A stretch of DNA of 64,000 nt from Flavobacteriales bacterium (GTDB taxonomy: Bacteria; Bacteroidota; Bacteroidia; Flavobacteriales_F; PHOS-HE28): NCBI GenBank assembly GCA_024103275.1, contig JAGFIV010000095.1:1-64000 (forward strand), in the 5' to 3' direction. Shown here piece by piece: positions 1-15,332 of this stretch. The translations under genes and the position numbers were made by a program. The notes beneath the pieces are model-generated. The model searched no databases. It had not been told where the DNA came from and was given only the letters and a program-made list of their open reading frames with translations. Each line of letters opens with the position of its first letter. Position 1 is the first letter of the stretch.

Positions 1-570
1 ACGGTTGTAGACCCGACGCCAACAAAGGCGGCGGCATCGGCGACTGCAGCGGCCTCGCCGACCCGGCGGGCCACAGCCGGGCCGTCGCCAACGCGGACGC
101 CGACAAGTACGCCAACGATGACTCCGACGCCAGGGGATGCGGAGCCAACACCAACACCGGCGCCGGCGGTTCTCGACAGTTCGGCGGATGCTCCGACCCC
201 GACGCCCGTGCCCGTAGAGCCGACCCCTACGGCGACGCCGGAGCCGGTGGTTTCTACGGGGCAGTATTGCGACACGATTTCGGCGACAGCGCCGCCGACC
301 ACAGTTGCGGGAACGCTCACGGTCGGCGGATTGCCGGCGCCCGCGGACACGACCGTATACCTGGCGTTCGATGGGGCTGCCGGGCCTGCGGCATACGTGG
401 TGGTTGACGGCGCAACGACGGGCTATTCCGCGGCGTTCAACACAGGCTCTGCCGGGTGCAGCAACCAGGTCGGCGCGTCCATCGGCATCATCGTGAACGG
501 CGTGTACTACGCGACCGGCTACACGATAGGCGGCGGCGACCCGTTCATCCGCTTCGACATCGCCCAGTAG
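1..570 (+). CDS. Thr/Pro-rich surface protein, 5'-partial
   Basis: The frame is open from the first base, so the true start lies outside the window and at least 189 residues are present. The first ~90 residues are low-complexity TP/PTPTP repeats with Ala, of the kind seen as cell-wall or surface linkers in Chloroflexota. The last ~100 residues form a compact Gly/Ala/Thr-rich domain with two Cys, ending in a beta-rich segment (GGGDPFIRFDIAQ). It looks secreted or surface-anchored, with the repeat as a stalk, but no function can be assigned. It converges on the amidase gene one base after its stop. The composition is unlike any Bacteroidota gene to the right. Confidence 0.65.
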   Translation, partial: TVVDPTPTKAAASATAAASPTRRATAGPSPTRTPTSTPTMTPTPGDAEPTPTPAPAVLDSSADAPTPTPVPVEPTPTATPEPVVSTGQYCDTISATAPPTTVAGTLTVGGLPAPADTTVYLAFDGAAGPAAYVVVDGATTGYSAAFNTGSAGCSNQVGASIGIIVNGVYYATGYTIGGGDPFIRFDIAQ

Positions 571-571
571 G

Positions 572-2017
572 TCAGCTGACCGGCGCACCTTTCGGGAGGG
601 CGTCCCATTCGAGGGCCCAGTTGGGGTGCCAGGGACGCTCGCGTTCGAATTCTGCCGCGAGCTGGAGGACGAGGTCGTCGCGATGACGCGGTCCGACGAT
701 TTGCATGCCGAAGGGCAGGCCTGTGGTGGTCATGCCGGCCCGGACGGTGGCCGCGGGGTGCCATGAGAGGTTGAAGGGGATGGTGAAGGAGCCGACGTTC
801 GACCACGGCTGCTTGCGGCCCTCGGTTTCCATCGGGTAGGGGCCCTCGGCGGCGAAGGCTTCGACGGGGACGGTTGGCGTGACGAGGAGGTCGGCGTCTT
901 CGAAGCGGGCGTCGATCCAGGCGGCGACCTCAGCGCGGCGTTCGGCGGCCTGCTGCCAGCGCTCGGGGGTCATGTCGTAGCCCTGGCGGATATTGTTGAC
1001 CATCCCGCGGGAGAAATCGGCTTCGTGGTTTTCGAGGAGGTGCCCGAGGCGGGCGGCGAAGAAGAAGCTGCCGGTAATGCCCCAGGTGGGACCGGCTTCG
1101 GGAGGACCACCTTCGACGGGGACGATGGTGTGACCAAGGGCGGCGAGCTGGCGCACGCAGTCTTCGACGCCGGCTGCGATGTCCGACTGGACTGCTGCGT
1201 AGCCGAGGTCTGGTGAGTAGGCGATGCGCAGGCGCCGTGGGAGGCCTTCGGCGACTCGTTCGGAATAGGAGTAGCCGGGATGGGGCAGGCTTTGCGGGTC
1301 GTGCGGCGAGGCGCCGGCGGTGATGTCCAGCAGCAGGGCGGCGTCGGCGACGGTCTTCGTGAGCGGGCCCCAGTTGGAGACGTCGGCGAACTCCCACGCG
1401 TCCGACGGGCCACGGGGCACGCGGCCGTAGGAGGGCTTGAGGCCGAAAGCACCGACGAAGGCGGCCGGGATCCGGATGGAGCCGCCGCCGTCGCTGGCAG
1501 TCACGAGGGGAAGCATGCAGCTGGCGAGAGCGGCGGCTGCGCCACCGCTTGAGCCGCCGGGTGTGCGTTCGAGGTTCCAGGGGTTTCGGGAGGCGCCGAA
1601 GACGCGGTTCTTTGTGAAGGCCGGCGCGGCGAATTCGGGGACATTGGTTTTGCCGACGACGATGGCGCCGGCGTCCCGGAGACGGGCGACCTGGACGGAG
1701 TCGTGTTGGGCGACGGCGTCCTGGAAGACGAGCGAGCCGTGGGTGGTGGGAAGCCCTTTCGCGTCCTCGATGTCCTTTACGCCGACGGGGATGCCTTCGA
1801 GGGCGCGCGGCGAGCCGTTTGCATAGCGGAGCTCGGCCATCTCGGCTTCGGCGAGGAGCGCTTCGCGTTCGCGGCGGTTGACGACGGCGTTGAGAGCCGG
1901 GTTGCATTCATCGATGCGGTCGAGGACGGACTGCATCAGTTCGAAGGCAGATGCTCGCCGCTGGCGGAGTGCGGCGAGCAGTTCGGTGAGGGTGAGCGTG
2001 AGCAGTTCGTGGGACAT
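572..2017 (-). CDS. Amidase signature family enzyme
   Basis: A 481-residue member of the amidase signature family, which hydrolyses carboxylic amides in the cytoplasm with a Ser-cisSer-Lys triad. Lys81 (GIPVGVKD), Ser156 (TPGGSSGG) and Ser180 (DGGGSIR) are all present. Full family length is about 450-500, so it looks complete and active. The open frame reaches 2041, but I chose the ATG at 2017 because GGAGG lies six bases upstream and the encoded MSHELL start fits the family. It follows uvrB on the same strand after 58 bp. The substrate is unknown. It could be annotated as GatA-like, but no gatB or gatC neighbour is seen. The use of a Shine-Dalgarno site contrasts with the genes beyond 4 kb. 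Confidence 0.9.
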   Translation of the reverse strand: MSHELLTLTLTELLAALRQRRASAFELMQSVLDRIDECNPALNAVVNRREREALLAEAEMAELRYANGSPRALEGIPVGVKDIEDAKGLPTTHGSLVFQDAVAQHDSVQVARLRDAGAIVVGKTNVPEFAAPAFTKNRVFGASRNPWNLERTPGGSSGGAAAALASCMLPLVTASDGGGSIRIPAAFVGAFGLKPSYGRVPRGPSDAWEFADVSNWGPLTKTVADAALLLDITAGASPHDPQSLPHPGYSYSERVAEGLPRRLRIAYSPDLGYAAVQSDIAAGVEDCVRQLAALGHTIVPVEGGPPEAGPTWGITGSFFFAARLGHLLENHEADFSRGMVNNIRQGYDMTPERWQQAAERRAEVAAWIDARFEDADLLVTPTVPVEAFAAEGPYPMETEGRKQPWSNVGSFTIPFNLSWHPAATVRAGMTTTGLPFGMQIVGPRHRDDLVLQLAAEFERERPWHPNWALEWDALPKGAPVS

Positions 2018-2075
2018 CGCAGCCTCCGGGGCGCGGCCCATTGTACTTCTGGATTACCTCCGGCGGCTGAGCCTT

Positions 2076-4160
2076 TTAGCGGCGGTAGCGGCGGGAGCGG
2101 TCGCGGCCGCCAGCCTGGCTCCGACCATAACGGACGGGTCCAGAGCGACCGGCGGCCTGGGCAAAGGCTTCGAGCTGCTCTTCGTCGCTGCCGGCGTACT
2201 GGCGGCGGAGCTCGACGATCTGGTCGCGCATGGCGGCGGCTTTTTCGAACTCGAGGTTCTTCGCCGCGGCCTTCATGGCAGATTCGAGGTCCTTGATCAT
2301 GCGTAAGGCGTCGGCTTTGGCGAGGTCTTGCGGGACGCCGTCGTAGGGCGCGGGCGCTTCGGCGGCCATGCGGACCTGGTCGGTGATGTCGCGGATGGCC
2401 TTGGCGATACCGCGAGCTTCAATTCCGTGGGACTCGTTGTACTCGGCCTGGATGGCGCGACGGCGGTAGGTTTCGTCGATGGCCTGCTGCATGCTGGCGG
2501 TGACCTTGTCGGCGTACATGATGACGCGGCCTTCGAGGTGGCGGGCGGCGCGACCGACGGTTTGGATGAGCGAGCGATTGGAGCGGAGGTAGCCTTCCTT
2601 GTCGGCGTCGAGGATGCAGACGAGCGAGACTTCGGGAAGGTCGAGACCTTCGCGGAGGAGGTTGATGCCGACAACGACGTCGTAGACGCCGAGCCGGAGG
2701 TCGCGCAGGATTTCGACGCGGTCGAGGGTTTGGACTTCGCTGTGGAGATAGTGGGTCTTGATGCCCATTTCGGTGAGGTAGTCGGCGAGGTCCTCGGCCA
2801 TCTTCTTGGTGAGGGTGGTGACGAGCACCCGCTGGCCTTTGTCAACGGTGAGCCGGATCTCGGCCATGAGGTCGTCGACCTGATTCTGGGTGGGGCGCAC
2901 CTCGATTTCGGGGTCGAGCAGGCCCGTGGGGCGGATGATCTGTTCGACGACCTGTGTGGAGCGCTTGAGCTCATAGTCGCCGGGGGTGGCGCTGACGTAG
3001 ATGGCCTGCCTGATGTGCTGGTCGAACTCTTCGAAGGTGAGGGGCCGGTTGTCGACGGCGCTGGGGAGTCGGAATCCGAATTCGACGAGGGTGTCTTTGC
3101 GGGCCCGGTCGCCGAAGTACTGTCCCTGGACCTGCGGCAGGGTGATGTGCGATTCATCGACCACCAGGAGCCAGTCGTCGGGGAAGTAGTCGAGGAGGCA
3201 CCAGGGGGTTGAGCCGGGCTCCCGCGCCTGGAGATGGCGCGAGTAATTTTCGACGCCGGCGCAGTAGCCGGTCTCACGAAGGGATTCGATGTCGTAGTGG
3301 GTGCGCTCTTCGAGGCGCGCGGCCTCGAGGATCTTTCCCTGGCTGCGGAACCATTCGAGGCGGCCGGCGAGCTCCTCTTCGATGCCTTTGATGGCCCCTT
3401 CGAGGCGGTCGGAAGTGGTGACGAAGTGCTTGGCGGGGTAGATGTCGACTTCGTCTCGTTCGCTGACGATTTCGCCGGTGAGGGGGTCGAGCTCGACGAT
3501 GCGCTCGACCTCGTCGCCCCAGAAGTCGATGCGGACGGCGAGTTCGTCGTAGCTGGGGAGGATGGTGAGCGAATCGCCGCGGAGGCGGAACTTGCCGCGC
3601 ACCATGTTCATGTCGTTGCGCTCGTACTGCATGCCGACCATGCGGCGGGTGGCTTCGGAGCGGGAGAATGTCTTGCCGCGTTCGAAGTGGAGGACGAACT
3701 CCTGGTACTGGGCGGGTTCGCCGAGGCCGTAGATGCAGCTGACGCTGGCGACGATGATGACGTCTCGCCGGGTGAAGAGAGAGCGGGTGGCGGCGTGGCG
3801 CAGCTTGTCGATCTCTTCGTTGATATCGGCGTCTTTGGCGATATAGGTATCGGTGCGAGGAATGTACGCCTCGGGCTGGTAGTAGTCGTAGTAGCTGACG
3901 AAGTACTCCACGCGGTCGTGCGGGAAGAAGTGCTTGAACTCGCCATAGAGCTGCGCCGCCAGCGTCTTGTTGTGGCTGAGCACCAGCGTGGGACGGTCCA
4001 GCCGGGCGATGACGTTGGCGATGGTGAAGGTCTTTCCCGATCCGGTGACGCCCAGCAGCGTCTGGAAGGGCATGCCGTCATTCACGCCATCCACCAACTG
4101 GCGGATGGCCTCGGGCTGGTCGCCGGTGGGCGCAAATTCCGAAATGAGGTCGAACGGCAT
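2076..4160 (-). CDS. uvrB: Excinuclease ABC subunit UvrB (apparently chimeric)
   Basis: UvrB, 694 residues: the damage-verifying helicase-like subunit of UvrABC nucleotide excision repair. Visible are Walker A (GVTGSGKT, residues 37-44), the beta-hairpin region [12 protein letters not shown] (about 90-101), DESHITLPQ, the motif VI region GRAARH, and a C-terminal UVR domain around 640-675 that contacts UvrC. The reading frame is intact. Residues 1 to ~84 ([10 protein letters not shown]) read like Bacteroidota UvrB and are preceded by a TATTTTTG promoter box four bases before ATG. From about residue 102 on ([24 protein letters not shown], the C-terminal Arg/Gly tail) it reads like Chloroflexota UvrB. 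The switch lies in the near-invariant stretch between 3858 and 3911. Confidence 0.95.
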
Positions 4161-4164
4161 GGTG

Positions 4165-4172
4165 CAAAAATA
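4165..4172 (-). promoter_or_regulatory. -7 box TATTTTTG before uvrB
   Basis: Perfect Bacteroidota TAnnTTTG box ending four bases before the uvrB ATG. This predicts a leaderless or nearly leaderless transcript and marks the 5' end of uvrB as Bacteroidota DNA. Confidence 0.6.
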
Positions 4173-4200
4173 CCGCGCCGTGCGGGGCCCTGCCGCAGGC

Positions 4201-5442
4201 TCAGGGGTCCGCCCGCTTCATCTCGGTCCAGTTCCGGTCCTGGAAAATCGCTGCTGGATCAAAGCCGGGCTTATTGCTCAGGATATAGGTGGTGCCGTCG
4301 CCGCGGCTCCACGCCTGGTCGTAGCCGGCGCTCATCTCCACGGCGGTGCCGGAAGCGTCCTTCCAGGTCTCCACCTCGCGGATGGTCTGCACGAATGCCT
4401 TGTGCTGGCGGTCCTGCGAGGCCTGCTGCCGTTCCCAGGAGCGCATCTGTGCATCCATCGCATCCATGCGCTGCTCGTGGCGCGCGGTGTTGGCCTGGCC
4501 CTGGGCCCGGATATCGGCCATGCGCCGGTTGTGCGCGGCGGTGTTGGCGCGGGTCTGCGCATCGATGGCGGCGATCCGTTCGCGGTGGAGGATGTCCTGC
4601 CGGTTGCGCATCTGTTCCATGTACTGCTCCACGGCCTGCTTCCACGCGGGATTGGTGCGGTAGCTGCCTTGGATGGTGGCCAGCACCTGCTCCGCCTCGG
4701 CCTTGCGGCCGGCGGGGAAGCGGATGTAGCTGCGCATGGCCGCCACGCTGGTGGACAGTTGCTGGAAGCCGCCGGTGTATATGTCCTGCATGGTGATGAA
4801 GATGTTCATCACGGACACCAAGGCGATGCCCTGATCGCCATTGGGCCATTGCAGCGTGCCGTTCACCGCGCTGTTGCGCACCTCGGCCTGTCCGCCGTAC
4901 TGCATGATGGCATTGCGGGTGCGTTGGCTTTGGGCGTCCAGCTCGGCGCGTGCCGCGGCATTGTCCTGCACCGTGGTGACGGAGGCCCCGTCCATCTCCC
5001 CGGCCAGCACCTGGCGCAGATACCGCTCCGCCTCCATCGGTTCCCCGAAGGCGCAACCGCCCTGCTGGGCCTGCATCATCATGCTTTGTTGCATCATGGG
5101 GTCGGAGGCACCACCCCAGGTGCGCAGGGGCAGTGCCACGAAACGGATGGCGCCGTCCGGCGAGGAGGCGCTCCATGGAGCCGTCACCAGCTCGCCCCGG
5201 CATTGTTGCAAGCTCCCCCAGCGGATGCCGCCCTCATGCTTCCAATCCCGGGGCAGCAGCACGCTGAACGCCTCGGCCGGCTCCTGGAAGCCGTCATTGT
5301 CCATGAAACGCACGCGCTGCATCACGGTGTAGTCCCGGCCTTCCACGTATGCTCCGCCACTGGCGGAGGACTGTCCGCCGCTCTCCGAGCATTGGCAGAG
5401 CACCAAGGCAAGAAAAAGGCTGAGGGTGATGTGCCGGCGCAT
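4201..5442 (-). CDS. Lipoprotein with Gln/Arg-rich helical middle, unknown function
   Basis: A 413-residue protein I do not recognise. The open frame extends to 5571, but the ATG at 5442 gives a clear lipoprotein signal ([21 protein letters not shown], lipobox cysteine near residue 18), so that start is preferred. Residues ~30-150 look globular. Residues ~240-360 are rich in Gln, Arg, Ala and Met ([20 protein letters not shown], then similar heptad-like blocks), suggesting a long helix or coiled coil. The last ~60 residues form a compact domain with [13 protein letters not shown]. It probably sits on the periplasmic face of a membrane. It stands alone between uvrB and a divergent small membrane gene. 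Confidence 0.75.
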
Positions 5443-5560
5443 GACTCTGGGGTTTTGTGCGAAGTTCCATCCGGATACCCGCCTGCCCAAGAAGCAGCCA
5501 TCCCATTTTCGGGGGAGTCCGCACTTTTCACATCTTCGCGGTCGCCAAGTGCGCCCCGCC

Positions 5561-5722
5561 ATGTTCCTCAAGCGGATCCTCTACTACCTCAACCCGGCCA
5601 CGCTGTTCACCCCGTCGGACGGCGACAGGAAGATGCGCTTCATGAACGGCGTGAACCGGTTCAGCATCTTCGTCTTCCTCATCTGCCTGGTGGTGATGAT
5701 CGTGCGGGCGTTGAGGCACTGA
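5561..5722 (+). CDS. Small membrane protein, 53 aa
   Basis: A short protein starting MFLKRILYYLNPATLF, with one hydrophobic segment near the C-terminus (FSIFVFLICLVVMIV) and a short basic tail. The start at 5561 is preferred to an upstream in-frame ATG because the upstream extension is Arg/His-rich shadow-like sequence. The layout (amphipathic N-terminus, NRFSIF motif, single C-terminal TM) recalls small conserved Bacteroidota inner-membrane proteins of DUF6728 type, but that recollection is unverified. No function can be given. It ends six bases from the convergent NlpE-like gene. Confidence 0.55.
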   Translation: MFLKRILYYLNPATLFTPSDGDRKMRFMNGVNRFSIFVFLICLVVMIVRALRH

Positions 5723-5727
5723 GCCCG

Positions 5728-6435
5728 TTACCGGCACGCCTGCAGGTCCAGCACGCCTTCCAGCCGATCGATGTGCAGGTAGTCCTCCGTCCCCGATCCC
5801 TCCATCGCCGGTCCCTCGCGCATGGAGGCCGTCACCTGCACGTACAACGGCTGCGGTGGCTCCTTCACCTGTTTGGCGTATGTCTTCTCCATCTCCGGCC
5901 CCGCCCCGGGGCTGCCGGCGGGGTCCATGGCCACGGGCAGCGCAAAGCCCGCCCCGCATGGCGTGAAGCTGTGTGAATCGGCGAAGTAGACGTACCCGCC
6001 CGTGAGGTGCATGGGTAGCGGATCGATGTGCGCCACTTTCCGGATGGTGTAGTTCAGCGGGCTGTCAATGGGCTTCCCGTCGGCATCCAGGCGATGAAGC
6101 CCGTCGCTTTCCATCCGCCATTCCATGGGTTTGTGGAAGGTGGCCAAGGTGACCACATCGCCTTTCACGCTCCATTTGCCGATGGTGCCGTACGGAATGG
6201 AATCCCGCTCCAGATAGCGTTCTCGGAGCACGTAGGTGCTGTCCGCCCGAAGGTCCAATTGGGTGAGGATGCCCGGGCAATCGGCGCAGGGCAGGGTATC
6301 GGCATACAGGCCGGTCCATTCCACCACGGGCACCACGGGTGCCAGTGCGGGGGCCGGCGTCGGCTCCTGTTCTTGGTTGCCTTGGCAGGATGCAAGGATC
6401 ACGAGGCATGCGGGGATGAAGCGGACCGGTTTCAT
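5728..6435 (-). CDS. NlpE-like lipoprotein
   Basis: A 235-residue lipoprotein (lipobox LASC, Cys17) with an N-terminal NlpE domain: WTGLYADTLPCADCPGI, carrying the CxxC pair at about residues 50-53, followed by LDLRADSTYVLRERYL and a beta-strand-rich core. In enterobacteria NlpE is an outer-membrane lipoprotein that signals surface and copper stress to Cpx. Bacteroidota homologues have no proven role. The C-terminal ~90 residues are an extra domain. The CxxC could bind a metal or form a disulfide. It is divergent from wbqC. Confidence 0.8.
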   Translation of the reverse strand: MKPVRFIPACLVILASCQGNQEQEPTPAPALAPVVPVVEWTGLYADTLPCADCPGILTQLDLRADSTYVLRERYLERDSIPYGTIGKWSVKGDVVTLATFHKPMEWRMESDGLHRLDADGKPIDSPLNYTIRKVAHIDPLPMHLTGGYVYFADSHSFTPCGAGFALPVAMDPAGSPGAGPEMEKTYAKQVKEPPQPLYVQVTASMREGPAMEGSGTEDYLHIDRLEGVLDLQACR

Positions 6436-6494
6436 TGGCCGTGTTTTTCAATTCGTGGTGCAAAGCAACAAGAACGGGGCGACCTTTGTTCCGC

Positions 6495-7130
6495 ATGCCC
6501 GGCACTCCCCTGTTTTCCGCGTTCTACTTCGGGAGCGTGGAACACTACGCGTTGATCGCCCGCCATCCGCGGATCATCATCGACACCGGTGAGCACTACC
6601 TGCGGCAGAGCTACCGCACGCGCACCGGCATCCTCGGGGCCAACGGCATGCAGCAGTTGCAGGTCCACATCGCCCGGCAGGGCGGGCAGAAGATGCCCAT
6701 GCACGGCGTGGGCCTTTCCTACGATGAGCCGTGGCATGCGCGTCACCTGCACGCCATCCGGAGTGCCTACGGCAAAACGCCTTGGTTCATCCATTTCATC
6801 GGGGACATCGAGGCCGTGCTGCGCCGCCGCCATGACCGCCTGGTGGACCTCGACCTGGCCACCCTGCACATGGCCTTGGGATGGCTGGGCATGAAGACCG
6901 GGGTGGAGGTCCGGGAGCGCTACGTGGAACAGGAGGAAGTGGCGGCCCTTGACCTGTTGGACCTGCGCACGGCGTTGCACCCGAAGAAGGCGCTGCCGCC
7001 CGCCATGCCTGCCGTGGCCCCTTACACCCAGGTCTTCGCGGACCGCCACGGCTTCCATGGCCGCCTCAGCATCATCGACCTGGTGATGAACTGCGGCCCC
7101 GAGGCCTGCCGGGTGCTGGCCCGCTGCTAG
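6495..7130 (+). CDS. WbqC-like family protein
   Basis: A 211-residue WbqC-like protein. Recognisable pieces are FYFGSVEHYALIARHP near the N-terminus, then GEHYLRQSYRTRTGILGANGMQ and a Trp/His-rich helical part. The family is common in Bacteroidota and sits in polysaccharide gene clusters, but its reaction is unknown. The frame opens at 6435. The ATG at 6495 is preferred because it starts the family motif and lies six bases after a GACCTTTG -7-like box. Its TAG stop overlaps the convergent sulfatase stop inside a CTAG palindrome. Confidence 0.85.
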   Translation: MPGTPLFSAFYFGSVEHYALIARHPRIIIDTGEHYLRQSYRTRTGILGANGMQQLQVHIARQGGQKMPMHGVGLSYDEPWHARHLHAIRSAYGKTPWFIHFIGDIEAVLRRRHDRLVDLDLATLHMALGWLGMKTGVEVRERYVEQEEVAALDLLDLRTALHPKKALPPAMPAVAPYTQVFADRHGFHGRLSIIDLVMNCGPEACRVLARC

Positions 7131-9004
7131 GGCAGGGCCAGTTCGTTGTCGTGCATGGCCTGGCCGAACCGTTGGATCACGGCCTCCATCCGCAGCTGCA
7201 TGGTATCCGCCGTGGCCGGTTCCGTGCGCAGCAGGTCCGTGGTGAACAACGTATCCGTCCCGTAGGCAAACAGGCCCACCGGTTTTTCCCCGTTGAAGAA
7301 GAGCAGGCGGTCCCCCTGGATCATCTGGTACTGCCCGTTCGCGTACTGGATGGCATAGGGGATGCGGTCGTTCTTGAACAGGCTTCGCCCGAAGGTGTTG
7401 ATGTCGCCTTCAAATCCCACGAGGTCGAGGATGCTGGGGATGATGTCCAGCTGCTGCGCCACCGAGGCATCGCGCCCCTTCAGGCTGCCGTCGCCCCGGA
7501 AGAACATGATGGGGACGGCGAAACGACCGGCGGGATTGGTGAACCAAGGTGGGTGGATGTTCCACGGATAGGTGTGGTCCGCGGTGATGACAAACAAGGT
7601 ATTGGCGTACCAATCGCTCTTGCGGGCCCGCCCGAAAAAGTTGCGGAGGGCCATGTCCACATAGCCGAGTGATTCATGGATCTCCTGGTCGCCCTTGGGG
7701 AAATGGCCTTTCCACCGCGCTGGAACGGGGAACGGGTCGTGGCTGGACAGGGTGAAGACCGCGGCGCCGAACGGTTTTTTCTCCCGGTCCAGGCGGTCGG
7801 CCATGAACTGGAGCCACTCTTCGTCGTAGATGCCCCAGTGGCCATCGTACCCGGCCTTGTCCGGGTATTGGTCCTTGCCATAATAGGTGTCGAACCCGGC
7901 GGTCCTGGTAAAGGAGTCGAACTTGTATTCGCCATTGAACCCGCCATGGAAGAAGGAGGTGGAATAGCCCATTTGCTTCAGCCTCTTCCCCAGCCCTTCC
8001 ACGCGGTTGTCGGCATAGGCCGTGTTCATGAAGGCATCGTCCATCAGCGAGGGGATGCCGCCCAGGACGGCGCAGATGCCCTTGTTGCTGCGCTCGGCGT
8101 TGGCGAACGCATTGGTGAACACGGCCGACTCCCCGGCAAGCGAATCCAGGAAGGGCATGTAGGCCGTTTCACCGCTGATGGCGCTGACATATTCCCGGCC
8201 CAGGCTTTCCACGATGATGACCACCACATTGTCGGGCCGGTCGCCGGCATCGTGCCGGATGGTGTAGCGCAAGGGCATGCGGCGGTCGAGCTCCTGCCGG
8301 CTGAAGTAGGCATGCTGCGCCAGCTCGGGTTTCGCCAAGGAATAGACAAACGTGAACGCGGAGTTGGTCACCAACGGGGAATAGGGCACGTCCACATGGT
8401 CGGCGGCACTCGCGGGCGACAGGGCTTGGTATTGCCATCCTCCCCTTCCCGCCACGAAGAGAATCCCGAGGCCCGCCAGGGCGGCCGCCGTCTCCGGGGC
8501 CCAGCGCATGCGATCTTGCCGTCGCCGCAGGCGTGGGTAGGCTTTCCACATCACCACGAGGGCCACCGCAAAGACGGCGGCCACCCACGTGTGATCGGCG
8601 AGGAACGACGGCAGGTTGCGGATCCCCGGCCCCAGCTGGCCGAGCAGGTCGCGCCCCACGCGCTTCAGGTTGAAGCCGAAGAAAGCCAGGTCGATGGTGC
8701 AGACCAGGAACAGCAGGCCGTTGGCCACCATGAACCAGCTGAACAGCAGGCGCTGGGCCAGCCGCGTGTTGCGCCACGGCAGGGGCAGCAGGTGGAGCAG
8801 GATGAAGGGGATGTTCCACCACGTGATCGTCGCCAGGTCGAAACGGAACCCTTGGAGCAGCACCTGCAGGCCCTGGCCCGGGGGTAGCGCCGGGAACAGG
8901 TGCCGGTAGACGAGGAAAAAGAGCAAGCGCAGTGCGGTGAGCAGGCCCAACAGCAGGCCCAGGCGCAGGGCCAGCAACCGCAGGTGGACGAACCTTCCCG
9001 GCAT
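7127..9004 (-). CDS. LTA synthase-type membrane sulfatase/phosphotransferase
   Basis: A 625-residue protein with about five N-terminal transmembrane helices (residues ~8-185) and a periplasmic alkaline-phosphatase-fold domain. Active-site features are VVVIIVESLG (metal-binding Glu), ERSNKGICAVLGG where the nucleophile Ser/Thr sits, FHGGF and ITADHTYP (metal-binding Asp-His). The family transfers phosphoglycerol or phosphoethanolamine to lipids or glycans. In Gram-negative Bacteroidota the substrate is unknown and lipoteichoic acid is unlikely. It is the last gene of a probable three-gene run after the two M16 peptidase genes, 34 bp downstream of them. Confidence 0.88.
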   Translation of the reverse strand: MPGRFVHLRLLALRLGLLLGLLTALRLLFFLVYRHLFPALPPGQGLQVLLQGFRFDLATITWWNIPFILLHLLPLPWRNTRLAQRLLFSWFMVANGLLFLVCTIDLAFFGFNLKRVGRDLLGQLGPGIRNLPSFLADHTWVAAVFAVALVVMWKAYPRLRRRQDRMRWAPETAAALAGLGILFVAGRGGWQYQALSPASAADHVDVPYSPLVTNSAFTFVYSLAKPELAQHAYFSRQELDRRMPLRYTIRHDAGDRPDNVVVIIVESLGREYVSAISGETAYMPFLDSLAGESAVFTNAFANAERSNKGICAVLGGIPSLMDDAFMNTAYADNRVEGLGKRLKQMGYSTSFFHGGFNGEYKFDSFTRTAGFDTYYGKDQYPDKAGYDGHWGIYDEEWLQFMADRLDREKKPFGAAVFTLSSHDPFPVPARWKGHFPKGDQEIHESLGYVDMALRNFFGRARKSDWYANTLFVITADHTYPWNIHPPWFTNPAGRFAVPIMFFRGDGSLKGRDASVAQQLDIIPSILDLVGFEGDINTFGRSLFKNDRIPYAIQYANGQYQMIQGDRLLFFNGEKPVGLFAYGTDTLFTTDLLRTEPATADTMQLRMEAVIQRFGQAMHDNELALP

Positions 9005-9038
9005 GGCTCACACCGGGCGGCGGCCCGGCGGGCAAGGC

Positions 9039-11195
9039 TCACTCCACCGAGAAGACCGCGGCATCAATGCCCTTGTTCACCAGGATCTCCTTGGCGGTGA
9101 GCGTCATCTCCATGCCCCCCGACTGGTGCAGGGAGAAGGGGAACAACACGCCGTCCACCGCGCGGTAATCGCCGTAGTCCGTGATCACCTGCACATAGCC
9201 GCCACCGTCCTGGGATTGGAAGTCCTTGCGGCGGACTTTCAACCCCGTGGCCACATCATAGTATTCGTCGAATGACCCGCCGGGCAACGTCTTCACGTTC
9301 ACACGGTAGGCCTTCTTGCCGTTGATGTCCACAATGCCCAGCAGCCTTGCGGAATATTCCAGCTCGGGGTAGCGCAGTTCGGGGAAGAGGTAGGCGCTTT
9401 GTTGCATCTCCTCCAGGTCCACGCCCACGAGTTCCTTGTCGCCCATGAAGCTTTCCACCTTGGCCTTTTCCCCGCCGTCGTACTTGATGCGCTGCAGCAG
9501 CATGTCCCCCACCTTCATCTCCATGCCGTACTTGTTGGGTTGCTGGAAGCGTTCCTCCAGCGTGGCCGCCATGCCCTGCACCGTGGTGCCATAACGCAAG
9601 CGCGCATTGCCCACTTTTTGCACGGCCGCCTTGCCGCCGATGGCCTTGATGTACGCATCAAGCACGTCCTGGGCGGTCATGCCCTTGGGGGCCGGCGTGG
9701 CCCCCTCGGTGGGGTCGAAGCGCACGATGTCGCCGTTGGCGTCGAAGTCGATCACGTTTCCTTTGGGGCTGAGCCCCTTCAAATTCTTGGCCACCTGTTC
9801 CTTGTCCCCCACCACCAGCACGGTGCAGCTATCGGGATGCAGGAACCGTTGTGCGGCCTGCTGGATCTCGTCCGCCGTAATGGCGTCCAGCTGCTTCAGG
9901 TAGGTGGCATAATAGTCCTTCGGCAGGTCGTTCAGGTAGGTGTTCAAGGCAAAGCGCGCCACGGTGCGCGGATCCTCCAGGCTTCGTGCAAAGCTCCCCG
10001 CCATGTAGCTCTTGGCCAGGGCCAATTCATCCGCCGTCACCTTGTCATCGCGGATGCGGTGCAGTTCCTTCATGATCTCGGCCGCCGCGCTGTCGGTCAC
10101 CTCGTTGCGCACGCTGCATCCGGCGCCGAAGGAGCCGCACCAACGGTCGGAGGTCAGCGTTGAATAGGCCCCGTAGGTGTACCCTTTGTCCTCGCGCAGG
10201 TTCTGCATCAGGCGGGCGTTGAACACCCCCCCGCCGAGGATGGTGTTGAGCACTTGCGCCTGCAAGGCTGCCGGATCGTTGGGCTTCAGTTCAACCGGGA
10301 ACACCACGCGGATCACGCTTTGTGCGCTTCCGGGACGGTCCACGAAGGCCACGCGCACTTCATGCGGCAGGCGCGGCTGTTTTCCAGCGGGGATGATCGG
10401 CCCCAGGTCCTTCACCACGTCATGGCCCTGTTCATCCTTGGTCACGGCCAGCTCCGCCCCTTTCCAATTGCCGAAATAGTGCTCGGCCATCTCGCGCCCT
10501 TTGGCGGGGGTGATATCACCCACCAGCACGAGGTAGCCCCGTTCCGGCCGGAAGAAATAGCGGTAGTATTGGTAGGCCTGTTTGCGGTCCACCTTTTCCA
10601 AGGAAGCCATGGTGGTCACCTCACCGTAGGGATGGCCCTTCCCGTAGGTCAGTGCCTGTCCCACCACCTCGCCGATCTGGTCGGGGTCGTCGCTGCGCGC
10701 CTGCACCTGCGAGGCCAGGCGGGTCTTGGCCTTGTCAAATTCCTCCGACGGGAAGGTGGCGCTGGCGACCACCTCGTATACCAGGTCCATCACGTCCTTG
10801 AACTTGTCGGTGAGGCTGGTGGCATAGATGCCATTGGAACTGGCGCTCACCTGCGCGCCCAGGCCGTCCACGCGTTCGTCGAACTGTTCCTTGGTGTGGC
10901 GGGCGGTGCCGCTGGTGAGCATCTCGCCCACGAGGTCCTTGTAGCCCACCCGATCGCCTTGCAGGATGGGCGGGATGTCAAAGCGCACCTGTGCACTGAT
11001 GATGGGGGCCTTGTGGTCCTCCACCACGATCACGCGCATGCCGTTGGGCAAGGTGAAGGTTTCATGTTTCCCCAGCTGTACCTCCGGGGCGGGGCCCGGC
11101 TTGGGGGCCTTGGAGCGGTCCACTTGTGCGGTCATCATGGCCGGTATCAGGAGTGTAGCGGCCAACGTAAGGGTATGAAGCGGCTTGCTGTTCAT
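9039..11195 (-). CDS. M16 peptidase-like protein, non-catalytic subunit
   Basis: A 718-residue secreted protein (signal peptide ending MMTAQ). Residues ~35-470 are two M16 (insulinase/pitrilysin) halves: TFTLPNGMRVIVVEDHKAP, then the fold partner with LREDKGYTYGAYS. The zinc motif HxxEH is missing (GYKDLVGEM stands there), so it should be the inactive half of an M16B heterodimer. Residues ~510-718 are an added beta-rich domain resembling outer-membrane lipoprotein sorting or DUF4292-type folds. It lies 17 bp after the catalytic M16 gene, and the two products probably assemble in the periplasm. Confidence 0.9.
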   Translation of the reverse strand: MNSKPLHTLTLAATLLIPAMMTAQVDRSKAPKPGPAPEVQLGKHETFTLPNGMRVIVVEDHKAPIISAQVRFDIPPILQGDRVGYKDLVGEMLTSGTARHTKEQFDERVDGLGAQVSASSNGIYATSLTDKFKDVMDLVYEVVASATFPSEEFDKAKTRLASQVQARSDDPDQIGEVVGQALTYGKGHPYGEVTTMASLEKVDRKQAYQYYRYFFRPERGYLVLVGDITPAKGREMAEHYFGNWKGAELAVTKDEQGHDVVKDLGPIIPAGKQPRLPHEVRVAFVDRPGSAQSVIRVVFPVELKPNDPAALQAQVLNTILGGGVFNARLMQNLREDKGYTYGAYSTLTSDRWCGSFGAGCSVRNEVTDSAAAEIMKELHRIRDDKVTADELALAKSYMAGSFARSLEDPRTVARFALNTYLNDLPKDYYATYLKQLDAITADEIQQAAQRFLHPDSCTVLVVGDKEQVAKNLKGLSPKGNVIDFDANGDIVRFDPTEGATPAPKGMTAQDVLDAYIKAIGGKAAVQKVGNARLRYGTTVQGMAATLEERFQQPNKYGMEMKVGDMLLQRIKYDGGEKAKVESFMGDKELVGVDLEEMQQSAYLFPELRYPELEYSARLLGIVDINGKKAYRVNVKTLPGGSFDEYYDVATGLKVRRKDFQSQDGGGYVQVITDYGDYRAVDGVLFPFSLHQSGGMEMTLTAKEILVNKGIDAAVFSVE

Positions 11196-11212
11196 GGTCT
11201 TCCGGTGGCTTG

Positions 11213-12532
11213 TCAGTTCTTCTTGGCTTGGGGCAGGTAGTGCAACACCACGCGGTTCTCCGGCATGAAATACTTGCGCGCCGCCCGCTGCAGGTCGTCG
11301 GCCGTCACGGCCAGGTAGTGTTCCACCTCGGTGTTCACCTTGTCGGTGCCGCCCAGGAACGTGTAGGCATTGGCCAGGTTGTTGGCGATGCCGGCCATGC
11401 GGGTGTTCTCCATCGCGTGCTCGGTCTCTATCTGCACCTTCAGCTTGGCGAGCTCGGCCTCGGGCACGGGCTCGTTGCGCACCCGCTCAAACTGCCTGTT
11501 CATGCTGGCTTCCAAGCTGTCGGGGTCCACGCCCATGTTGGCCACGGCAAAGGCGATGGCCAGTCCGGGGTCCTCAAAGGGCAGGCTGAAGGAACCCACG
11601 AAGACGGCCTTTTGCTCGGCCTCCTTCACGTTCCTCACCAGGCGGCTGCTGTTGCCGTTGCTCAGCAGGCGGTTCAGCATGTCCACGGCATAGAAGTCGG
11701 GCGTGCCCAAGGCCGGGATGCGGTAGGCCTGCACCACGGCGGGCAGCTGGATCTTGTCGTATACCACATCACGGACCTCCCCTTTCAGCGGCGGCTCCAC
11801 CACGCTGTTGCGCGGGACCTCCGCACCCTTGGGGATGGGCCCGAAATATTTGGCCAGCTGGTCCTTGGCCTGCTTCGGGTCGAAATCGCCCGCCAGCACC
11901 AGCACCGCATTGTTCGGCACATAGAACGTCCGGTAGAAGCGCTGGTAGTCCTTCTCGGTGGCCGCGTTCAGGTCCTCCATGTACCCGATGGTGGGCCACT
12001 GGTAGGGGTGCTTGGTGTAGGCGCGTGAGAGCACCTCGGGCAGGATGCTGCCATAAGGCTGGTTCTCATAGCGTTGGCGCCGTTCCTCCTTCACCACCTC
12101 GCGCTGCGTCTCGATGCCCTTGGTGTCCACCTTGGCGTGCATCATGCGTTCGCTTTCCAGCCACAGGCCCAGTTCAAGCTGGTTGCTGGGCAGCACCTCG
12201 TAGTAATAGGTGCGGTCGCCCGTGGTGTTGGCGTTCAGCACGCCGCCCGCCTTCTCCACGTACTTGGCGAATTCGCCCCGCCCGATGTTGTCCGAGCCCT
12301 CGAAGAGCAGATGCTCGAAGAAGTGCGCGAACCCCCGCCGGTCCCTCGCCTCATCCTTGCTGCCCACATGGTACATCACGCCCACGGCCACGATCGGGGT
12401 GCTATGGTCCTCATGAAGGATGACGTGCAGGCCGTTGGGCAGGTCGTACTCGGTGAATTTGATCTGGCGGGTCTGGGCCGTGGCGGTGATCGTGGCCATG
12501 GTGAACACGGATAAGGGGATGAATGCTTTCAT
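11213..12532 (-). CDS. M16 zinc metallopeptidase, catalytic subunit
   Basis: A 439-residue periplasmic M16B peptidase. A signal peptide (MKAFIPLSVFTMATITATAQ) precedes the catalytic domain with the inverted zinc motif HFFEH (His70, Glu73, His74), followed by the usual downstream acidic region and the C-terminal Arg/Tyr half (about 240-420). The frame runs open far upstream to 14278, but that part is antisense to the malate synthase-like gene. The ATG at 12532 begins the signal peptide. A TAAATTCG box lies 29 bases upstream. It is the first gene of the M16-M16-sulfatase run. Confidence 0.93.
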   Translation of the reverse strand: MKAFIPLSVFTMATITATAQTRQIKFTEYDLPNGLHVILHEDHSTPIVAVGVMYHVGSKDEARDRRGFAHFFEHLLFEGSDNIGRGEFAKYVEKAGGVLNANTTGDRTYYYEVLPSNQLELGLWLESERMMHAKVDTKGIETQREVVKEERRQRYENQPYGSILPEVLSRAYTKHPYQWPTIGYMEDLNAATEKDYQRFYRTFYVPNNAVLVLAGDFDPKQAKDQLAKYFGPIPKGAEVPRNSVVEPPLKGEVRDVVYDKIQLPAVVQAYRIPALGTPDFYAVDMLNRLLSNGNSSRLVRNVKEAEQKAVFVGSFSLPFEDPGLAIAFAVANMGVDPDSLEASMNRQFERVRNEPVPEAELAKLKVQIETEHAMENTRMAGIANNLANAYTFLGGTDKVNTEVEHYLAVTADDLQRAARKYFMPENRVVLHYLPQAKKN

Positions 12533-12561
12533 GCTGCTCGGCTTTGGCGCGGAAGGGGTCG

Positions 12562-12569
12562 CGAATTTA
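12562..12569 (-). promoter_or_regulatory. -7-like box TAAATTCG before the M16 gene
   Basis: One mismatch from TAnnTTTG, 29 bases before the start of the catalytic M16 gene, in the divergent 189-bp gap with the malate synthase-like gene. No convincing box was found for the latter. Confidence 0.4.
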
Positions 12570-12721
12570 GGCATTCCGCCGCCGGGCACCCCTCCGGTCG
12601 GCAGGGCTGCACGCGGCCACGGCCTCCCGCTTCCGCAATGGCCGCCGATGCCCGAAATTCGCACCGCGCGGCCCGTTGAACCCGCTCTTCCCGGTTGGCG
12701 TAGAATGGGCCGCCGACGACC

Positions 12722-14269
12722 ATGGGAACCTCCGCAAACAGCCTCCGGGGCCAGCCGCCCGTACCGGATGAAGCGCTTGCGCTGCTCGCGGCCATGGAGG
12801 AGCAATTCGGGCCGCGCCGCGCGGACATCCTGCAGGAGGCCGCCGGCCGCAGGGAACGGCTCATCGCGGAAGGACCGGGGTTGCTTACCGAAGCGCGTGA
12901 CCCAGCCGAATGGCACGCCGACCCTGCACCTGCGGAATTGATGGAGCGGCGGGTGGAATTGATCGGCGGATGCGGGCGCAAGGCGTTGGTCGATGGCATG
13001 AATGCGGGTGCCAAGAGCTACGTGGCCGACCTGTGGAACATGACCTGCAACGAGCCGGAGGCCATCTGGCGCGCCCACAAGAACATCGCCCGGGCCACCG
13101 ACCTGCACCTGATGTACATCGGCGATGGCGGCGAACGCATTCGGCTCAATCCCAGGAGCAGCACCCGGCTGACGCTGGCCCCGAGGCCACTGCAAGTCCA
13201 TGACCGGTCGGGCCTGCCAGGCACTTCCGCGCCGGCGGCCTTCGTGGACCTGGCGGTCCATGCGGTGAACAATGCGGCCAAGTTGGTGCGTCGCCAAGGT
13301 GTGGTTTCCCTTTTCCTGCGCGGGGTCCGTGGATGCCATGAAGCGCGTCTCTGGGCCGACCTGTTCATTTTCCTGGAGAAGCGTCTTGGGCTGGCCCGCG
13401 GAAGCTTCCGCGCAACGGTGATGCTGGACAGCCTGGCCGCGGTGATCGATGCGGACGGCATCCTTCGGGAACTGAAGCATCACTCCGCGGGCCTCTCGCT
13501 GGACCCGCAGGGCTACGCGGCGGACCTTGTGGCCTTGTTCAGCACGCTGGACGGCCCTTTGATGCCGGACCGTGAGCACATCGGCATGGATGCCCCCTTC
13601 CTGCGTGGCGTCAGCCTGCGGGCCATCAGCATCTGCCACCGCCGCCAGGTCCATGCCATGGGCGCGCCGGCCTTTGTGCTGCCGCCCGACGGACATGGCA
13701 CGCTCAACGCACGCTACCTGGAGATGCTGGGCGACAAGGAACGCGAAGCGGTGGACGGCCATGACGGCACCTTGGTGGCCCATGCGGGCCTGGTGAACCC
13801 GGCGATGACGGAATTCAACAAAAGCATGCCCCGCGCCCACCAGATGTACTACCAACGGGAAGACAAGTCCACGTGGGCCGAGCTGACCGCCAAGCCCGAA
13901 GGGGAGCTGACCACCGAGGGCATGCAGCGCTGCATCCGTACGGTGCTCAAGGGGATGGTCCTGTTCCGGGAGCAGGGGCTGGTGGTCCAGGGCGGCCGGC
14001 TGCACGACCGCTCCTCCATCCGGTTGGCCACCGTGCTGCTGTGGCATTGGGCCCACGGGAAAGGCAGCTTCAGCACGGGGCTGGAGATCCACGAAGGGGT
14101 GGTGAAATACCTGATCCGCAAGGAAGGCGACAAGCTGTTCGCCATGGAAGGTGCCGAACTGCACGACCGCGCCGTACAGGCCGCCCAAAGGCTGACGCAG
14201 GTGGTGCTGGCACCCCATGTGCCGGCCGACCTGCTCGAAATGGGCCCGCAACTGGTGGACAACCGATGA
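12722..14269 (+). CDS. Divergent malate synthase A-like protein
   Basis: A 515-residue protein matching the malate synthase A fold end to end: RRVELIGGCGRKALVDGMNAG, ATVMLDSLAAVIDADGILREL, HSAGLS, CHRRQVHAMGAPAF and GHDGTLVAHAGLVNPAM. Malate synthase condenses acetyl-CoA with glyoxylate in the glyoxylate bypass. Compared from memory with E. coli AceB, the presumed catalytic Arg (APRP) and base Asp (RLHD) can be placed. However, the Mg-binding Glu of IETL is Asp here, the GRWDY aspartate region reads DPQGY, and the usual ADFEDS motif reads ADLWNM. Activity is therefore doubtful. No isocitrate lyase is nearby. Its TGA overlaps the ATG of the DUF551 gene. Confidence 0.75.
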   Translation: MGTSANSLRGQPPVPDEALALLAAMEEQFGPRRADILQEAAGRRERLIAEGPGLLTEARDPAEWHADPAPAELMERRVELIGGCGRKALVDGMNAGAKSYVADLWNMTCNEPEAIWRAHKNIARATDLHLMYIGDGGERIRLNPRSSTRLTLAPRPLQVHDRSGLPGTSAPAAFVDLAVHAVNNAAKLVRRQGVVSLFLRGVRGCHEARLWADLFIFLEKRLGLARGSFRATVMLDSLAAVIDADGILRELKHHSAGLSLDPQGYAADLVALFSTLDGPLMPDREHIGMDAPFLRGVSLRAISICHRRQVHAMGAPAFVLPPDGHGTLNARYLEMLGDKEREAVDGHDGTLVAHAGLVNPAMTEFNKSMPRAHQMYYQREDKSTWAELTAKPEGELTTEGMQRCIRTVLKGMVLFREQGLVVQGGRLHDRSSIRLATVLLWHWAHGKGSFSTGLEIHEGVVKYLIRKEGDKLFAMEGAELHDRAVQAAQRLTQVVLAPHVPADLLEMGPQLVDNR

Positions 14270-14553
14270 CCCGGCCAAACGCGGAGTGGATATCCTGTGC
14301 GGACCGGTTGCCGGCCGATGGACAGCGCGTGCTCTGCTGGGTGCCGGGCAACCTGGTGCACCTGCCCGGCCTCGATGAACGTGAACCGCGCGAGGTGGTG
14401 ATCCTGCGTTTCGCGGAGGATTGGTTCATCAAAAACCCGAGCAAGACGGGCCGCAAGACCCACCGCCACTTCTGGCTGGGCGAGGGCAGCAGCAATTTCT
14501 TTTTCGAGCGCGTCTCCCATTGGCAGCCGCTTCCCGGCGGGCCCGCCTCCTGA
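14266..14553 (+). CDS. DUF551-like protein
   Basis: A 95-residue protein opening EWISCADRLPADGQRVLCWVPG and closing FFERVSHWQPLPGGP, which is the DUF551 pattern (WIsv-RLP--g--VL- ... -THW-PLPe). The family is mostly known from phages and mobile DNA and has no established function. It starts inside the end of the malate synthase-like gene (ATGA overlap), so translation is coupled. The middle differs from phage copies by an insert rich in basic residues. A perfect hairpin terminator follows seven bases after its stop. Confidence 0.65.
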   Translation: MTRPNAEWISCADRLPADGQRVLCWVPGNLVHLPGLDEREPREVVILRFAEDWFIKNPSKTGRKTHRHFWLGEGSSNFFFERVSHWQPLPGGPAS

Positions 14554-14559
14554 AAATGC

Positions 14560-14588
14560 GGCAGGGCCCGGGAATGCCGGGCCCTGCC
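14560..14588. terminator. Perfect 12-bp hairpin between convergent genes
   Basis: GGCAGGGCCCGG pairs fully with CCGGGCCCTGCC around the loop GAATG. It lies between the convergent DUF551 and FKBP genes and can serve both strands. Confidence 0.75.
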
Positions 14589-14606
14589 TTTGCCTTCGCG
14601 CGGTGC

Positions 14607-15332
14607 CTACTTCTTCACGATGTCCAACAGCTCCACCTCGAAAATGAGGGCGCTGTTGCCGGGGATGTCCGCCCCCGCACCGTGCTGGCCGTAGGCCAAT
14701 TCACTGGGGATATACAGCTTCCAGCGGGAACCCACGGGCATCAGCTGCAGGGCTTCCGTCCAGCCGGGGATCACGGCATTCACCGGGAATTGGGCCGGTT
14801 GGCCACGATCATAGGAGCTGTCGAACTGCTTGCCGTTGATCAACGTGCCCCGGTAGTTCACGCTCACGGTCTCGTCCGCTGTGGGCCTCGGCCCCGTGCC
14901 CTGTTGCAACACCTCGTATTGGAGGCCGCTGGCCGTGGTGACCACCTCCGGCCGCTGGCCGTTCTTCGCCAGGAAGGCCCGCCCTTCGATCAAGTTCAGG
15001 GAATCCTTGCCGGCCTGTTGCGCCATGAGCTTCTTCTGCACCTCCAACATGTAGGCCTGCACCATGGACTTCACGGCGTCGGAATGGATCCGTTCATTGC
15101 TGTCGATGGCATCGCGCATGCCCGCGAACAGCGCATCCATGTTCAGCGAATCCATGCCAGCCTGCTTCAGGTTCATCTGCAGGTTGCGGCCCACATCGGT
15201 CCCCACGCCGTAGCTCACCGAATCCACGGTGGTCTTCAGTGGGATGTTGCGGCCGAGCTGGCCGGTGGCCTCATTGGTGCAGGCGTTGAGCAACAAGGCG
15301 GCCGCGGCCAGGAACGGGAGTTTGAAGTTCAT
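14607..15332 (-). CDS. FKBP-type peptidyl-prolyl isomerase, lipoprotein
   Basis: A 241-residue protein with a lipoprotein signal (lipobox LNAC, Cys18), an FkpA-like N-terminal dimerisation region (VSYGVGTDVGRNL, about 40-130) and a C-terminal FKBP domain (VSVNYRGTLINGKQFDSSYD, then IPGWTEALQLMPVGSRWKLY and IPSELAYG). It catalyses prolyl cis-trans isomerisation and acts as a chaperone in the periplasm. The ATG at 15332 starts the signal peptide, and a TACCTTCG box lies at 15352-15359. The upstream open frame to 15668 is antisense shadow. Confidence 0.93.
   Translation of the reverse strand: MNFKLPFLAAAALLLNACTNEATGQLGRNIPLKTTVDSVSYGVGTDVGRNLQMNLKQAGMDSLNMDALFAGMRDAIDSNERIHSDAVKSMVQAYMLEVQKKLMAQQAGKDSLNLIEGRAFLAKNGQRPEVVTTASGLQYEVLQQGTGPRPTADETVSVNYRGTLINGKQFDSSYDRGQPAQFPVNAVIPGWTEALQLMPVGSRWKLYIPSELAYGQHGAGADIPGNSALIFEVELLDIVKK

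Follow-up and report, generated by a model that had tools for sequence, protein, structure and literature searches.

The stretch of DNA analysed here, which we call the window, comprises the first 64,000 bases (1–64000) of contig C119 (112,074 bases), which belongs to a genome assembly (G000) of 137 contigs and 3.58 Mb that is listed as 100% complete and 1.69% contaminated. Near its left end we found a uvrB open reading frame on the minus strand (2076–4160), which encodes 694 amino acids and is open along its entire span. This uvrB shares one word of sequence with a second uvrB of the same genome, located on contig C16, and the locus on C119 was divided into the following parts.

1–570, plus strand: TPTP-rich protein, probably foreign (Chloroflexota-like), truncated by the contig start.
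572–2041, minus strand: amidase gene, probably foreign (Chloroflexota-like), assigned from NCBIfam amidase families and a homologue in genome G079.
2076–3867, minus strand: uvrB part covering about residues 99–694, probably foreign (Tepidiforma-like Chloroflexota), assigned from identity and tree.
3868–3902, no strand: 35-bp word common to C119 and C16, the longest exact match between both uvrBs and the putative crossover point of the assembly.
3903–4160, minus strand: start of the genome's own (Bacteroidota) uvrB, residues 1–86, assigned from identity and tree.
4161–64000, plus strand: the genome's own part of C119, the ordinary upstream side of uvrB, assigned from collinearity with genus-mates and from composition.

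The nucleotide query for collinearity covered window positions 1–25000, and further right the assignment is by composition. The amidase reading frame matches NCBIfam amidase families, all those shown scoring under the curated cut-offs. By eye, a GGAGG was seen 5 nt ahead of an internal ATG, which follows the start of the longest amidase reading frame by a few codons.

To place the two parts of UvrB separately, we used a comparison set of 114 sequences, consisting of C119, C16, 29 relatives, 78 of 80 Chloroflexota loci and 5 others; L073 and L089 were left out because in neither did the script find a reading frame that satisfied its motif and length settings. Residues 2–85 of the C119 protein had their top identity in this set with a genus-mate (L006, 89.3%), the best Chloroflexota sequence reaching 72.6%. 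Residues 100–640 were 85.6% identical to a Dehalococcoidia MAG (L052) and 85.4% identical to Tepidiforma flava (L054), and at most 56.0% identical to the Bacteroidota set. Separate trees of the two parts were built from 39 hand-picked rows of the 114. In the tree of the N-terminal part, which had 86 columns only and mostly weak branches, the C119 front fell inside the genus clade (SH-aLRT 97). In the tree of the C-terminal part, the C119 back fell among Tepidiforma-like sequences, with SH-aLRT values of 95, 97 and 100 on successive branches. The genomes of our collection that serve as relatives are taken as Bacteroidota on the ground that both trees group them with Bacteroides finegoldii, with support of 95 and 100. 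At the nucleotide level, identity to the genus-mate G002 was 80–86% over amino acids 2–85 and dropped to 49–70% past amino acid 99.

Both uvrBs of G000 exceeded the curated cut-offs for excinuclease ABC subunit B, as UvrB proteins do: C119 and C16 scored 1034.7 and 984.1 bits with TIGR00631 (cut-off 750.1) and 1056.2 and 1017 with NF003673 (cut-off 743). They differ from UvrB proper in that each hybrid reading frame combines pieces of two genes, and neither is apparently present in a single organism. When front and back were compared across all 114 sequences, C16 (−19.6) and C119 (−11.4) were outliers in discordance, the next value being −6.4, with no formal threshold applied.

The position of the switch was then narrowed with diagnostic bases, taken from a comparison of 25 genus-mates with 11 Tepidiforma-like sequences (L048–L058, our own grouping). 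The last clearly genus-type base was 3909 (24 of 25 genus-mates, 0 of 11 Tepidiforma-like sequences), and the first clearly Chloroflexota-type base was 3863 (1 of 25 and 11 of 11, respectively). Base 3897 of C119 matched 2 of 25 genus-mates and 10 of 11 Chloroflexota sequences, and it is uninformative because the genus-mate G032 and C16 carry the same base. When the intact genes closest to each part, those of G032 and G079, were fitted as two sources, the best split fell between 3873 and 3867, with agreement at 58 of 73 diagnostic sites for the front and at 409 of 571 for the back. A preliminary description of this DNA had claimed a UvrB with a Bacteroidota-style front and a Chloroflexota-style back, had proposed aligning the parts separately, and had put the switch inside 3858–3911 (residues 84–101). 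Both claims held, the separate alignments giving 89.3% to the genus against 85.6% to a Tepidiforma-like sequence and bases 3909 and 3863 bracketing the switch; the two parts did not place in one phylum, the outcome that had been named as counting against a chimera.

The genes to the left of the switch change along with uvrB. We found that the left 3.9 kb is collinear with contig C282 of G079, which belongs to the same family as Tepidiforma flava; there, uvrB is followed by the amidase and then by the TPTP protein in convergent orientation. On that contig the amidase homologue (62%) lies directly behind uvrB at 1556–2977, and the TPTP-protein homologue lies at 567–860 (44.9% over 98 amino acids). 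L048 (46%) and L059 (49%) also carry a convergent homologue of the TPTP protein, located behind uvrB at distances of about 0.7 kb and 3.5 kb, respectively; in all, 2 of 80 Chloroflexota loci carried one. Among the 38 Tepidiforma-family genomes searched, an amidase match turned up somewhere in 35, and G079 was the single genome in which uvrB and the amidase were neighbours. An attempt to use the amidase as proof of Chloroflexota origin through the named loci failed, with 2 of 80 matching at only 38% and 33%.

Composition switches at the same place. By three distances, the tetranucleotides of 1–3867 were farther from those of 20001–64000 than were all 56 segments of similar length to the right of 4200, a comparison that the preliminary description had proposed. 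It had also stated that the flanking genes change with uvrB, which is borne out by their collinearity in G079 and by the 12 genus-mate regions that we fetched, in none of which the amidase or the TPTP protein lies beside uvrB. Its overall claim, that uvrB joins two phyla and marks a contig chimera, is thus supported, since the parts place apart and the flanks and composition switch together.

The claim was strengthened by a complementary chimera on C16, where the second uvrB of G000 lies at 2113–4116. The back of this UvrB was 90.6% identical to genus-mates. Its front was closest to Neisseria (76.2%), followed by Proteus and the best Chloroflexota sequence (both 71.4%), with the Bacteroidota set reaching at most 66.7%; in the tree of the N-terminal part it fell outside the Bacteroidota set, between Proteobacteria and Chloroflexota without resolution. 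The left neighbour of the C16 uvrB is an aromatic aminotransferase (NF006719), for which the best relatives in the plasmid collection were from Caballeronia (65%), and no close match to the left end of C16 was found in that collection. These distant matches suggest, less surely than for C119, that the left end of C16 may come from a proteobacterium (betaproteobacterium-like). Bases 1–2360 of C16 had tetranucleotides beyond all 58 comparison segments, and the remainder of the contig resembled C119. Both foreign pieces sit at contig starts.

The longest exact match between C119 and C16 was the 35 bp at window positions 3868–3902, the second longest being 19 bp. From about 2368 onward, C16 consists of the uvrB tail of the genus and its downstream genes, so that the displaced continuation of C119 is present in the assembly. 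Furthermore, the intact uvrB of the genus-mate G032 contains the same 35-bp word and is C119-like just before it and C16-like after it. We infer that the join lies within sequence shared by the parents, which for the Chloroflexota parent is drawn from its relatives.

The intact locus in genus-mates matched this picture. In all 12 fetched regions (L036–L047) uvrB is one gene. By protein comparison, four (L037, on a 1.9-Mb contig, L040, L043 and L045) had C119 genes upstream and C16 genes downstream; the C16 side lay downstream in 10 of the 12, including six without the C119 side. Neither side was found by protein in L041 and L047. Region limits made one side unobservable in L047, which stops 0.1 kb behind uvrB, and in L044, which stops 0.2 kb before it; in L041, neither the C119 nor the C16 flank was found within about 9 kb on either side of uvrB. 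The C119 protein that adjoins uvrB (4201–5571) was unmatched in all 12 regions. By nucleotide comparison (matches of at least 150 bases), C119 DNA lay upstream in six of the 12 (L037, L039, L040, L043, L045 and L047), the matches in L039 and L047 being only about 150 bases long. The clearest case was G002 (L040), in which window positions 6478–12580 matched upstream at 75.4%, C16 2136–4131 matched over uvrB at 87.5%, and C16 4321–10278 matched behind it in two pieces (72.8% and 77.4%). Collinear pieces upstream of an intact uvrB fell within window positions 6478–15226 in G002 and 5555–14543 in G004. The simplest account of these gene orders is that C119 and C16 would be chromosomal neighbours that meet inside uvrB, each given a foreign end.

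Collectively, these data indicate that C119 is very probably an inter-genome assembly chimera from mixed-community reads, with a foreign Chloroflexota-like end that begins within uvrB. Both the complementary chimera at the identical 35 bp on C16 and the intact loci of relatives fit the preliminary description in this respect. We propose that three genomes (a Bacteroidota genome, a Tepidiforma-like Chloroflexota genome and a betaproteobacterium-like genome) would share an exact word of about 35 bp in a highly conserved stretch of uvrB, at which the assembler would have left the Bacteroidota genome on both sides. The Bacteroidota upstream side would have been continued into the Chloroflexota uvrB tail, giving C119, and the Bacteroidota downstream side would have been joined to the proteobacterial uvrB head, giving C16. 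The organism would then really have one ordinary uvrB, whose start lies on C119 and whose end lies on C16. On this reading, the hybrid uvrB is an assembly error and not a biological feature, and there is no new biology in it.

The zone of the join is one in which long exact runs concentrate. Among 2,262 pairs of Bacteroidota-set and Chloroflexota uvrBs, which are non-independent, 895 had their longest exact run in residues 86–100, a zone that makes up about 2% of the gene; runs of at least 30 bases occurred in 186 pairs, in 166 of them within this zone. Runs are rarely as long as the one seen here, with a median of 19 and at least 35 in 59 of the 2,262 pairs. For two proteobacterial references, the median run was 14 and the longest run fell in residues 86–100 in 7 of 58 pairs. 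Given the final k-mer sizes that common assemblers use, a match of 35 bp is short, even if extended to the maximum of about 45 bp that the diagnostic bases allow, so one has to assume a low-k stage, gap filling or a library chimera.

Similar errors are described in the literature. According to the metaMIC paper, inter-genome translocation is the commonest misassembly in CAMI datasets (PMC9661791), and another study lists regions that are conserved between coexisting species among the causes of chimeric assembly (PMC4782286). The join on C119 resembles the translocations described for metaMIC in that two genomes lie in one contig and are joined at shared sequence, and differs from them in that different phyla are involved, only about 35 bp are shared and both reciprocal products are in the same bin. 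A mock-community test located chimeric sequence invariably at contig ends (PMC8172020), as is also the case on C119.

The short shared word is what speaks for a library chimera, that is, for a molecule formed by amplification or ligation before sequencing that the assembler merely recorded. Template switching likewise favours short identical stretches. We consider this origin very improbable, as two complementary chimeras with two foreign genomes at the same word point to a shared graph node and hardly to random molecules. We take the sample to have been mixed and the join to have probably been made by the assembler rather than in the library.

Real recombination, in which the Bacteroidota lineage acquired the tail of a Chloroflexota uvrB together with the adjoining genes, is extremely improbable. 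In its favour, the hybrid reading frame runs uninterrupted for 694 codons and reaches the score of a full UvrB, but an open frame is expected in any case, since two parents joined at a homologous site stay in frame. In-gene recombination is an unlikely source because uvrB is cut at one word with both ends joined to foreign DNA: the organism's own uvrB tail and normal downstream genes were kept on C16, where the same 35-bp word links them to sequence of a third lineage. The acquired amidase was moreover absent from all 12 genus-mate regions, and the foreign piece reaches the contig start with a deviant composition and the gene order of the Tepidiforma family. That G000 has two uvrB genes, as paralogues or as a plasmid copy, is next to inconceivable: it does contain two full-length matches, and the plasmid collection includes entries that carry a uvrB, some being of chromosome size, but each copy is a hybrid, the halves are complementary, and the intact copy of genus-mates is flanked by the C119 side and the C16 side.

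With the assembly chimera as the preferred reading, bases 1 to about 3867 of C119 are not usable as sequence of this organism and should be trimmed, as should bases 1 to about 2368 of C16, and the uvrB of G000 should be annotated as a single gene. Neither hybrid should be taken as cross-phylum gene transfer. The value of the finding beyond caution about this record is low. A complementary pair of hybrids within one bin does provide a clean discriminator between assembly chimera and recombination that works without reads.

It is doubtful that the conserved uvrB stretch is a recurrent crossover point for assemblers between phyla, with many MAGs carrying hidden hybrid uvrBs. The zone around the word shared by C119 and C16 may be prone by sequence between Bacteroidota and Chloroflexota, yet no second case was found: none of the remaining 112 of the 114 UvrBs, a set chosen by similarity and non-random, was discordant. 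Our literature search found no paper on uvrB with misassembly, metagenomes or chimeras. Contigs that end in uvrB were present among genus and class relatives (G007, G011, G025, G030, G031 and G050). They were not taken as signs of a hotspot, as these genomes are fragmented, the breaks fall at many residues and the count is about that expected for a 2-kb gene by a rough estimate.

G037, a class-mate genome, was considered as a second reciprocal chimera, having two uvrBs near contig starts (L128 on its contig C55 and L129 on its contig C6). It was rejected, the two proteins being near-identical end to end with neighbours alike on both sides. The DNA of the two copies has diverged, with a longest exact run of 53 bp, and apparently a single locus is represented twice in the bin because two closely related organisms contributed to it. 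In G082, of the T. flava family, the uvrB match (contig C2, 17911–19676) consists of two abutting pieces of 63%, with one internal TGA, and 80%, and is possibly a broken or misassembled gene.

Some features of the uvrB surroundings were observed in passing. On the minus strand of the window, a TATTTTTG box lies at 4165–4172, just 4 nt before the uvrB ATG, and we take this motif to be a candidate Bacteroidota promoter box. If it is a promoter, the transcript would be nearly leaderless; alternatively, the box may be there by chance. On the other side of the gene, a homologue of the C16 reading frame 4156–6510, presumably a secreted trypsin-type peptidase from its appearance, follows uvrB in 10 of the 12 genus-mate regions, and a similar-looking secreted protein lies behind uvrB in G037.
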